Shown one piece after another: positions 10,461 to 59,297 of a stretch of 64,000 nucleotides of DNA; positions within the stretch are counted from its first letter, which is position 1, and every line of letters starts with the position of its first letter. The position numbers and the translations under genes are program-made. The notes beneath the pieces are model-generated. The model was not told where the DNA came from, searched no databases, and saw nothing but the letters and a program-made list of their open reading frames with translations. Origin of the DNA: Halobacteria archaeon HArc-gm2 (lineage in GTDB: Archaea; Halobacteriota; Halobacteria; Halobacteriales; Haloarculaceae); NCBI GenBank assembly GCA_025517465.1, contig JAOPKE010000011.1, positions 62,001 to 126,000 on the forward strand, read 5' to 3'.

Positions 10461-10550
10461 CCGACCGTACTGCAACCGCCCGGCCGGGAGCGCGTGCCCG
10501 AACGAAGGTGAGGGTCGCGCGACCAGGGGGAGGGCAGGGCTGCGGTGCTG
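10461..10550 (+). repeat. Dispersed repeat module B, copy 1
   Basis: This stretch, including CAACCGCCCGGCCGGGAGCG and GTCGCGCGACCAGG, recurs inverted at 23810-23890 with a different short insert between conserved blocks. It lies immediately before a CTGAAAGGGGC-type hairpin, as its partner does. No coding content. Confidence 0.6.
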
Positions 10551-10563
10551 TGCTGGCCTGGCA

Positions 10564-10673
10564 GGATGAAGGGGCGAGGTGCGCTCGCGCTGGAAGGCAG
10601 TCGCTCAGCGGGCACTACCCGAACGCACGTGAGGGTATCCCGCTGAGCGACCGCGAGCGTGCCGAGGGCTTTC
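10564..10673 (+). repeat. CTGAAAGGGGC hairpin repeat, copy 3 (variant)
   Basis: The 5' end reads GGATGAAGGGGC and the 3' end GAGGGCTTTC. An inner perfect stem GTCGCTCAGCGGG (10600-10612) / CCCGCTGAGCGAC (10639-10651) is stacked on a second arm containing CGCTCGCG / CGCGAGCG. The 3' flank TTTGTTGTTGG is shared with copy 6. Confidence 0.65.
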
Positions 10674-29070: not shown

Positions 29071-29171
29071 GAAAGCCCCGGCTGGCTCCGGTCCCGCGGC
29101 TCGCTGCGCGCTCACTTCGTTCGCGTGCTTGCTTCGCCGGGGTTCCCGGAGCCAGCCGCCCCTTTCATTCC
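29071..29171 (-). repeat. CTGAAAGGGGC hairpin repeat, copy 7
   Basis: Inverted copy with perfect 12-bp arms GGCTGGCTCCGG (29080-29091) and CCGGAGCCAGCC (29146-29157). The loop has GCGCTCACTTCGTTCGCG. The left end is GAAAGCCCC; the right end is CCCCTTTCATTCCC. Confidence 0.8.
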
Positions 29172-42862: not shown

Positions 42863-42936
42863 GACACTTGGACGTACGGAATCGCGACACGTGAAGGGAT
42901 CGCCCGATATAGCAGGTGTCGCGGCCGACCGCCACC

Positions 42937-43000
42937 GCCGCCTCCCCGGTTTGAACAGATGCCAGACGTTCCGGGCGTGCGGCTCGCGGGTCGCGCTGCT
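42937..43000 (-). repeat. tRNA-tail hairpin element, divergent copy E4
   Basis: Has GCCGCCTCCCCGGTTTGAAC (copy of the tRNA-Phe 3' end), then GACGTTCCGGGCGTGCGGCT (42965-42984), the core shared with E2, E3 and the tRNA-Asn element. The distal arm is degenerate. It lies 1.2 kb from tRNA-Phe in the gap between halorhodopsin and the lipoprotein. Confidence 0.6.
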
Positions 43001-43130: not shown

Positions 43131-43565
43131 TCACTCGGCGTCCGCTTCGGCGCCCTCCGGCGTCCCCGGGTCCTCAGAGAGACCGTAGAACGCGCCCATC
43201 TCCGTATTTCGAGCGAACACCGCCACCGTCTCGTCGGCGATCGTCAACGTATCACCGCCCTCTTGCGTGGTGAGGAAATCGTCCTCGCTACCGATCCCGA
43301 ACGTCACGTCGACGGTGACGTCCGTACCGACACCGGGGTGTGGCACGACATCGACGTACGAATCCGTCTCGCCGCTCGCCAGCGTTCCGGTTTTCGTCAC
43401 AGAATCGACCGTTATCTCGTAGGCTCGTTTCTCGTCCAGGTCGTTCCGCACCCAGATGTTGAGATCGGTCGGTGACGAATTTCCAAGCGCGGAACAGCCC
43501 GCAACGCTTGCAACCGTCGCGACGCCCGCCGTAGCGAGCATCGCTCGGCGCGAGAGTTCTGTCAT
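43131..43565 (-). CDS. Tat lipoprotein of unknown function
   Basis: 144 residues. Twin-Arg SRRAMLATAG and lipobox VAGC near residue 24 mark a Tat-exported lipoprotein. The mature part is a single beta-sandwich-like domain (LNIWVRNDLDEKRAYEITVD; GDTLTIADETVAVFARN), acidic with no catalytic signature. It lies between halorhodopsin and the tRNA-Phe array. Function unknown. Confidence 0.72.
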   Translation of the reverse strand: MTELSRRAMLATAGVATVASVAGCSALGNSSPTDLNIWVRNDLDEKRAYEITVDSVTKTGTLASGETDSYVDVVPHPGVGTDVTVDVTFGIGSEDDFLTTQEGGDTLTIADETVAVFARNTEMGAFYGLSEDPGTPEGAEADAE

Positions 43566-43724
43566 GGCACCCCATCGACAAACCGATAGTTAGTCGTTTT
43601 GGTCACCGCCGAACGCGCATCCGCGCTTCGCACCGTTCGAGCCCGTCATTTCCCCGTGTTCTCTGTAGACACACCGACGACGCAGAACGATCCGTCGTCG
43701 CTCCCTCGCTTGTTCGCAGGAAAA

Positions 43725-43826
43725 TGCCGCCTCTCCCATTTGAACAGATGAGAGACGTTCCGGGCCTGCGGCCTCACTTCGTTCGGCCGTTCCGGGACTG
43801 CGACTCACGAGTTCAAATCGGCTCGG
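43725..43826 (-). repeat. tRNA-Phe tail hairpin element E3
   Basis: The 3' end mimics tRNA-Phe with three changes (TGCCGCCTCTCCCATTTGAA, plus strand). The 5' arm is GTTCAAATCGG (43811-43821); ATTTGAAC (43738-43745) pairs with it. Core GACGTTCCGGGCCTGCGGCC and distal CGGCCGTTCCGGGACTGCGA are kept. Confidence 0.75.
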
Positions 43827-43884
43827 ATAGATTTCTCCGACGGCGGGCTCCTCGCTGTCGCTCGTCGCGTTGTCGTCGGAGAAA

Positions 43885-43986
43885 TGCCGCCTCCCCGATT
43901 TGAACAGATGCCAGACGTTCCGGGCGTGCGGCCTCACTTCGTTCGGCCGTTCCGGGGCTGCGACTGGCGTGTTCAAATCGGCTCGG
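43885..43986 (-). repeat. tRNA-Phe tail hairpin element E2
   Basis: Contains an exact copy of the last 18-19 bases of tRNA-Phe, CCGATTTGAAC (43895-43905) and its perfect complement GTTCAAATCGG (43971-43981). The core GACGTTCCGGGCGTGCGGCC starts at 43914. A 58-bp spacer to E3 carries its own perfect 11-bp hairpin: ATTTCTCCGAC (43831-43841) / GTCGGAGAAAT (43875-43885). Confidence 0.8.
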
Positions 43987-44043
43987 TGTGCCATTCGCAG
44001 AATCCGCCGCGCTCGCTCCGCTCGGCGGTCGGATTCAGAAGAA

Positions 44044-44122
44044 TGCCGCCTCCCCGATTTGAACGCCGTGAGACGTGCTCGTTTCACTGCGCGCGACTCA
44101 CGAGCTCAAATCGTGTCGGGAG
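44044..44122 (-). repeat. tRNA-Phe tail hairpin element E1 (short)
   Basis: Exact 3'-end copy TGCCGCCTCCCCGATTTGAA with arms CGATTTGA (44055-44062) / TCAAATCG (44106-44113). It carries only a shortened core (GAGACGT...GCGCGACTC). The spacers on both sides (44123-44178 and 43987-44043) each form a hairpin, for example GAATCCG / CGGATTC at 44000 and 44030. Confidence 0.75.
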
Positions 44123-44178
44123 CATTTTCACTGCTCACAGTCTCGGTCGCTTCGCTCCCTCGCTGGTTCGCAGGAAAA

Positions 44179-44252
44179 TGCCGCCTCCCCGATTTGAACG
44201 GGGGACAGCTCGATCTTCAGTCGAGTGCTCTCCCAGTCTGAGCTAAGGCGGC
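44179..44252 (-). tRNA. tRNA-Phe (GAA)
   Basis: 74 nucleotides, cloverleaf complete: acceptor GCCGCCT / AGGCGGC with A discriminator, D-arm GCTCAGACTGGGAGAGC, anticodon stem and loop ACTCGACTGAAGATCGAGCT with GAA, T-arm CCCCGTTCAAATCGGGG. No intron. CCA is not encoded. The bases downstream on its strand begin an array of hairpins that repeat its 3' end. Confidence 0.95.
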
Positions 44253-58994: not shown

Positions 58995-59054
58995 AGAGCG
59001 GATTGTGCCGTCTTTGTTTATAAGGAAACGTCCGACTGTACGGCACGTCTTCCG

Positions 59055-59152
59055 GCCGCCGCCAGGGCTCGAGCTTGTGAGACGTTCCGGGCGTGCGGCC
59101 TCACTCCGCTCGGCCGTTCCGGGGCTGCGACTCGTCGGCTCGAGCCTGTCGG
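59055..59152 (-). repeat. tRNA-Asn tail hairpin element
   Basis: GCCGCCGCCAGGGCTCGAGC mirrors the tRNA-Asn 3' end (T-loop C for T). The other arm GCTCGAGCC is at 59138-59146. The core GACGTTCCGGGCGTGCGGCC (59081-59100) is identical to that of E2 at the tRNA-Phe locus. The spacer to the tRNA (59153-59224) has its own hairpin, GACGAGCAC / GTGCTCGTC. Confidence 0.75.
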
Positions 59153-59224: not shown

Positions 59225-59297
59225 CGCCGCCGCCAGGGCTCGAACCTGGGACAACCTGGGTAACAACCAGGTGCTCTACCAACTGAGCTACGGCGGC
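59225..59297 (-). tRNA. tRNA-Asn (GTT)
   Basis: 73 nucleotides. Acceptor GCCGCCG / CGGCGGC with G discriminator; D-arm GCTCAGTTGGTAGAGC; anticodon stem CCTGG / CCAGG around TTGTTAC, giving anticodon GTT; T-arm CCAGGTTCGAGCCCTGG. No intron and no encoded CCA. Followed on its strand by one tail hairpin. Confidence 0.95.

Follow-up and report, generated by a model that had tools for sequence, protein, structure and literature searches.

Tandem hairpin arrays with direct and inverted copies of the local tRNA arm behind haloarchaeal tRNA genes

The window, a stretch of 64,000 nucleotides of haloarchaeal DNA, contains a tRNA-Phe gene followed on its own strand by a tandem array of hairpin units, and this array is one member of a genome-wide series. 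Each unit has the form h-T'-c-T, where h and c are hairpins and T and T' are a direct and an inverted copy of the upstream tRNA. The units have a common anatomy, carry arms that match the local tRNA, sit only behind tRNA genes, are present across the class Halobacteria and turn over both as whole units and as modules. Such arrays follow about half of the haloarchaeal tRNA genes and are found in nearly every genome of the class. They appear to be undescribed in the open literature that was searched, mostly on tRNA-linked repeats, integrases and archaeal integrons, where no earlier description was found.

The tRNA-Phe array and its series in the genome

Behind tRNA-Phe the minus strand reads T0(tRNA)-h1-E1-h2-E2-h3-E3-h4, each E being a T'-c-T hairpin (Table 1). 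The first-pass annotation of the window had given the order as tRNA-Phe, spacer hairpin, E1, spacer hairpin, E2, spacer hairpin, E3, with spacings of 160 (E3 to E2), 159 (E2 to E1) and 135 (E1 to tRNA), and both the order and the spacings hold. E1 and E2 end, as it had stated, in the exact 21-nt tail of tRNA-Phe (GTTCAAATCGGGGAGGCGGCA), and E2 and E3 share a core with one change (GACGTTCCGGGCGTGCGGCC and GACGTTCCGGGCCTGCGGCC). The inverted arm that it had assigned to each element (CCGATTTGAAC) is exact in E2 and E3 but imperfect in E1 (CACGATTTGAGC). Its view that this is not simple duplication of an attachment site was right, the inverted arm and the common core being the defining parts. The E4 remnant stands 789 bp further on, beyond an open reading frame.

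A covariance model of T'-c-T (R1) was built from 15 units of this genome. Its best four matches in the window were E2, E3, E1 and a single unit behind tRNA-Asn (matched at 59063-59148), all on the tRNA strand (E 1e-15 to 3e-7); the tail copy of the tRNA-Asn unit has 2 mismatches.

Table 1. Features of the tRNA-Phe array and of the tRNA-Asn unit, in window coordinates
Feature	Position	Strand	Description and basis
tRNA-Phe (GAA)	44179..44252	-	ARAGORN and Rfam RF00005; T0 is its nt 53-73, 44179-44199
h1 spacer hairpin	44116..44178 (borders approximate)	-	starts with the T-run behind the tRNA (CATTTTC...GAAAATG); sequence and folding
E1 hairpin T'-c-T	44053..44115	-	T' imperfect, core short (CGCGCAGTGAAACGAGC); covariance model R1, E 7.9e-10
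T1	44044..44064	-	exact copy of tRNA-Phe nt 53-73; sequence
h2 spacer hairpin	43983..44043 (borders approximate)	-	sequence and folding
E2 hairpin T'-c-T	43894..43982	-	exact arms, long core; covariance model R1, E 1.3e-15
T2	43885..43905	-	exact copy of tRNA-Phe nt 53-73; sequence
h3 spacer hairpin	43823..43884 (borders approximate)	-	stem GGAGAAAT/ATTTCTCC
E3 hairpin T'-c-T	43734..43822	-	core 1 change from E2; covariance model R1, E 2.3e-10
T3	43725..43745	-	copy of tRNA-Phe nt 53-73, 2 mismatches; sequence
h4 remnant	43690..43724	-	near-identical to the start of h1; repeat search
E4 remnant	42936..42983	-	T copy 42936-42956 with 2 mismatches, and right part of the core (GACGTTCCGGGCGTGCGGC, plus strand)
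Single unit behind tRNA-Asn (59225-59297)	59054..59148	-	arms match tRNA-Asn (GGCTCGAGC/GCTCGAGCC); covariance model R1, E 3.2e-7

The open reading frame mentioned above (43131-43565, minus strand, 144 aa) has a lipoprotein-like start (RRAMLATAGVATVASVAGC). It lies between the third and fourth tail copies and is the only gene-sized insert seen within an array here.

The tRNA genes of the genome were examined together with as much as 2.4 kb of the sequence behind them. Copies of a tRNA's own tail (at most 2 mismatches, within 1 kb) numbered 33, at 18 of the 42 tRNAs. When the tails of other tRNAs were sought at the same places as a control, 0.05 copies were expected per set, and the own-tail copies are therefore not due to chance. 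The covariance model found 45 matches in this genome, and every chromosomal match that was traced stood behind a tRNA, of any isotype; apparent chromosomal exceptions were resolved as matches behind tRNA-Gln, tRNA-Pro, tRNA-Trp and tRNA-Leu. The series includes Phe, Tyr, Ser, Ile, Val, Lys, Gly, Arg and Asp as well as Asn, Glu, Leu, Cys, Met, Thr, Pro, Gln and Trp, and the arms are own to each.

Other arrangements were seen at tRNA genes of the same genome. At tRNA-Leu-GAG (C1:356605, L045) there is a different tandem duplication, in which the tail and ~70 nt of downstream sequence are repeated after 193 nt. Contig C2 has a cluster of ~14 head-to-tail tRNA genes (C2:76238-79645, L079) with no tail-copy arrays, which is probably plasmid- or virus-borne. 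In this plasmid-like cluster the T-loop of a tRNA-Cys and of a tRNA-Gln-like gene is interrupted by a c-type hairpin, so that hairpins of the c type do enter T-loops.

Anatomy of the units and match of their arms to the local tRNA

The anatomy was read from a sample of 180 tRNAs, of which 122 had copies; 134 of these 190 copies were exact. T reproduces tRNA nt 52-73; on the left it begins abruptly (identity 0.29 at nt 51, 0.85 at nt 52), on the right it fades after nt 74, and a T-rich stretch lies behind each tail. T' pairs with nt 52-63 only, the near-universal GGTTCRANTCC box, and does not reach the acceptor strand; T' as a full inverted tail was ruled out, since it ends at nt 63. The units are non-coding and about 97-229 bp long (median 128), and the T'-c-T hairpin takes up ~73 nt. 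Its outer T'/T helix measures 11-13 bp and leads through a small internal loop to a middle stem ending AG/CT; a T.T mismatch, CG/CG and an upper part that varies come next. The c core, AGTCG...CGTCT, is conserved across all isotypes and families. Among 122 distinct aligned units, 93.6% of the pair cells were standard pairs and the covariation score of T'-c-T was 0.344, against 0.130 for shuffled alignments (0 of 500 shuffles) and at most 0.074 for slid controls, in an alignment that was fitted to the model and is thus biased towards the structure, and with which a MAFFT alignment of 15 units agrees.

A further hairpin module, with the ends CCTTCGCGAA...TTCGCTCAGTCCC or CCCTCGTTCACTCCGTTCACGAGGA, was seen at several loci (L118, L113, L127, L135, L143, L158 and others). 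With this module, T is interrupted after nt 60-63, and nt 60-73 follow a second time beyond a double hairpin. Two known structures were compared with the units and rejected. An archaeal bulge-helix-bulge intron has two bulges 4 bp apart, whereas the internal loop of the units lies opposite itself (2 x 3), and for a Box C/D guide to the T-loop no CUGA box was present behind T'.

The arms follow the local tRNA. T' agrees with that tRNA in 131 of the 161 cases in which it differs from the T-arm consensus (nt 57, 44 of 46; nt 59, 18 of 19). Where the T of a unit has drifted from its tRNA, T' follows the tRNA in 21 cases, T in 7 and neither in 2. A T with the tail of another tRNA was found in none of the arrays of the two congeners compared below. 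Taken together, the local bases in T' and the absence of foreign tails suggest that both arms are written from, or corrected to, the resident tRNA. The core c, unlike the arms, is common to different tRNAs.

Distribution in the class and turnover between congeners

All genome samples held one genome per species. In an exact-pattern scan of 84,980 species, the 21 loci recovered were all from Halobacteria (Haloarcula, Halorientalis, Natrinema, Halorubrum, Halobacterium and others). The covariance model had matches in 142 of 145 genomes of the class, with 1-31 matches each in ten families; in a draw from the phylum, matches were present in 23 of 24 genomes of the same order and in 0 of 124 others. 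The first-pass annotation had proposed a search of this kind and would have been refuted by a lack of conserved arms or core in other haloarchaeal tRNA tails; both were recovered there, so that its refuting condition did not hold, and placement downstream of tRNA genes was borne out, with 28 of the 29 best matches in other genomes standing directly behind a tRNA on the same strand. In those genomes, too, the tail copies match the tRNA that they follow. The core matched no record in the viral, phage and plasmid collections.

Three genomes of the class were array-less. In two of them tail copies or inverted arms were found at 0 of 41 tRNAs; both have ~47-48% GC, compared with 65%, and the absence of arrays may therefore reflect composition. 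Hairpins with the same tips numbered 2-7 sites genome-wide in the three array-less genomes and 34-176 in five array-bearing ones. Arrays and same-tip hairpins thus come and go together, with composition as a confounder. In array-bearing haloarchaea, extragenic hairpins that combine tandem G-A pairs with GNA loops (CGARCGAAGYGAG), for example at 10497-10637 and 29109-29125 of the window, occur at about three times the level of a reversed-pattern control, and array-less genomes have next to none.

A comparison with a genome of the same genus (G138), in which the tRNA genes are identical at most loci, revealed that congeners sharing the same tRNAs differ by entire units, which have been gained, lost or put in a new order. 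Specifically, the own-tail copies in this genome and in G138 number 0 versus 2 at Lys-CTT, 5 versus 1 at Glu-TTC, 0 versus 1 at Val-CAC and 4 versus 2 at Phe. Recent exact tandem duplications were seen in the Glu array and at Lys-CTT in G138. The order of the Ser array is h1c1-h2c2-h3c3 in one congener and h2c2-h1c1-h1c3 in the other. Likewise, modules h3 and c2 are newly combined in the Phe array, where the counterpart of h3 in G138 has a different position. This reshuffling of h and c modules shows that exchange takes place at T as well as at T'.

In G138 the unit at tRNA-Val-CAC is followed by a sequence that, in this genome, adjoins the tail directly, behind an integrated element. The locus thus gives an empty-site comparison for the precise insertion or loss of h-T'-c-T. 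The element itself (C1:188777-192607, L180) is 3.7 kb long, carries an integrase gene and is integrated in tRNA-Val-CAC; the G138 site is free of it. Its att block of ~35 bp starts near nt 39 and has no T' or c.

Explanations of the arrays and their significance

The best reading, to which we give an even chance, is that the arrays are tRNA-anchored DNA hairpin cassettes specific to Halobacteria, in which the local T-arm is copied both ways and which are shuffled at T and T'. The arms would arise at the DNA level, by copying of the resident T-arm in both orientations, and the hairpin would act as single-stranded DNA of the tRNA-sense strand during replication or recombination. Modules would be swapped where T and T' sequences meet, and paired changes in the stem may come from hairpin-templated copying. 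Against this reading, neither an enzyme nor an excision circle nor a fresh insertion came to light. Moreover, a c core that is conserved across isotypes and families needs dispersal or selection, so local copying alone is insufficient. More speculatively, Halobacteria might possess a dedicated recombination system for which the T-loop of each tRNA gene is the dock and folded single-stranded hairpins are the substrates, and which writes direct and inverted copies of the local tRNA into every new cassette. Such a system, a possibility we raise tentatively, would build arrays on a tRNA anchor in the manner of integrons or CRISPR.

A narrower proposal, which we consider unlikely, assigns the arrays to a site-specific recombinase of their own. 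This would most likely be a tyrosine recombinase that works, as in integrons, on single-stranded DNA in folded form. Every tRNA T-loop would be its attachment site, the c hairpin an attC-like partner, and h-T'-c-T a small, mostly gene-less cassette. The copy does start at G52/G53, immediately ahead of the T-loop, which is the result expected from an integrase crossover at that point, and the topology GAAC-hairpin-GTTC, with 57-136 nt, an internal loop and a mismatch, is attC-like. Integron attC arrays and CALINs are alike in their tandem cassettes in shuffled order, imperfect hairpins of 57-136 nt, GTT/AAC inner ends, unpaired spacer and mismatch. The overall architecture is similar to that of a folded attC site, but the boxes differ, with TTTGAAC/GTTCAAA in the tail hairpins and RYYYAAC/GTTRRRY as the attC consensus. 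Congeners also differ in cassette order, the arrays are present class-wide, and this genome has 8 Pfam Phage_integrase matches, one of which might be the tyrosine recombinase involved. However, an integron integrase reached the TIGR02249 cut-off in 0 of 97 class genomes, and a canonical integron was rejected for want of this IntI. Unlike integrons and CALINs, the tail arrays stand at tRNA genes of every isotype, their arms copy the local tRNA, and their units, at 97-229 bp, almost never come with a gene (one window ORF lies between E3 and E4). In addition, a cassette moved to another tRNA would carry a foreign tail, of which none was found, and h and c recombine also at T', which cassette exchange at G/TT does not predict. 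The main text of a survey of archaeal integrons does not name Halobacteria (PMC9668308).

Other known families were compared in the same way. CRISPR arrays and casposons resemble the tail arrays in a repeated stretch (here of 22 nt), variable spacers and a fixed anchor alongside, but the spacers of tail arrays are self-similar hairpins. Casposons use tRNA 3' ends. Duplication of the Cas1 or casposon type was rejected, as Cas1 (PF01867) is absent in the array-rich genomes G000, G138 and G086; it is present in all three array-less genomes. REP/BIME palindromes and IS200/IS605-derived PATEs are likewise short extragenic palindromes with DNA-type hairpins and many copies per genome, whereas tail arrays are confined to tRNA 3' ends and have locally templated arms. 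The Y1 transposase (PF01797) is absent in the array-rich G086 and G089 and present in the array-less G014, G054 and G129, and an IS200/IS605/REP origin was discarded on these grounds. The Small Mobile Repeats of Haloquadratum walsbyi are short non-coding haloarchaeal repeats with terminal inverted repeats; their ends are conserved and they have no reported link to tRNAs (PMC3119063), whereas the arms of tail arrays change with the tRNA. IntI, Y1 transposase and Cas1 thus do not fit as machinery, and the tail-hairpin arrays belong to none of the families tested. By analogy, they may work like integron cassettes in shuffling and site shape, and like target-site duplication in their T copies.

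A functional RNA, rather improbable in our estimate, would be a structured 3' trailer or small RNA co-transcribed with the tRNA that regulates transcription end or processing. The strict site and orientation behind tRNAs, the strong covariation of T'-c-T and the T-rich stretch behind each tail are all what such an RNA could show. Folding pulls the same way: the sense strand folds better under RNA parameters, and c has no preferred strand under DNA parameters. G-U outnumbers A-C 82 to 32 overall and stands at 24 to 29 without nt 53/54; as the excess is confined to these two positions, the asymmetry was rejected as proof of RNA. In the middle stem, Watson-Crick pairs are replaced as wholes, and only 3 cells are G-U among 7 pairs x 122 sequences. 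The tip loops C(GNA)G, GNYA and GNAB are far above GNRA, which is nearly absent, and they lie on the tRNA-sense strand at 106:2 for c and 70:1 for h. GNA and GNNA loops closed by G-C pairs form extraordinarily stable DNA mini-hairpins (PMC4686876). About half of the tRNAs have no arrays, orthologous tRNAs gain or lose them between congeners, and Rfam gathering scores in the window were reached by tRNAs only. Where T has drifted, T' mostly follows the tRNA instead, which favours DNA, since a selected RNA helix should follow T.

Generic hairpins with the same tips are not aligned with the direction of transcription (3 sense, 4 antisense, 13 divergent and 3 convergent, in small numbers). Their role as transcription terminators, apparent in 6 of 6 cases in the window, failed in a larger set. 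As read from sequence, the evidence favours a DNA process over small RNAs, on account of a T' that tracks the tRNA, a stem poor in G-U, tips of DNA type, unoriented generic hairpins and fast-changing copies. The first-pass annotation had offered two readings, and its palindromic mobile unit targeting tRNA ends fits better than its array of small RNAs cut by RNase P/tRNase Z, although a transposase, and with it mobility in the strict sense, was not found. The small-RNA reading is lowered because T is locked in a helix with T', and so cannot form a T-arm, because compensation between T and T' is weak (7 of 30) and the stem poor in G-U, and because of the turnover between congeners.

We think it improbable that the arrays are a neutral by-product, in which tRNA 3' ends were duplicated in tandem among hairpin-rich spacers and homogenised by recombination with no element involved. 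Recent exact tandem duplications occur, as described above for Glu and Lys-CTT, and adjoining T copies are perfect substrates for slippage. Nevertheless, the T copies of the Ser array are identical while its h and c are wholly different, so that these units are not simple duplicates; the same c core recurs across ten families of the order behind tRNAs that are not related, and tandem duplication yields no inverted arm that tracks the local tRNA.

A tail copy is the classical footprint of an integrase. Integrase att duplications at tRNA 3' ends share with the arrays a direct 3'-end copy starting at the T-loop, but the tail units are in tandem, measure 100-200 bp and have an inverted arm and a common core, behind most isotypes, and the att footprint of a mobile element was set aside as the real Val-CAC att block in the same genome has a different anatomy. 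That the arrays are footprints of integrated viruses or plasmids with tRNA 3' ends as attachment sites is very improbable: haloarchaeal elements do use tRNAs (PMC8371274, PMC3119063) and the tail copy looks like their mark, but the true Val-CAC block is longer and lacks T' and c, the units stand in tandem behind nearly all isotypes, and the core is in no viral, phage or plasmid record.

The arrays form a repeat family that is found in nearly every genome of a well-studied archaeal class and is attached to the most conserved genes. As each unit has a forward and a backward copy of its tRNA, some process writes tRNA into DNA both ways. Once found, the process behind the copies would prove to be a recombination system not known before or else a clear example from nature of DNA copied from a hairpin template. 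Its discovery would also bear on the annotation of haloarchaeal tRNAs and integrase sites, which is confused by unfamiliar repeats, and on the questions of why tRNA 3' ends draw mobile DNA and how tRNA genes become interrupted.
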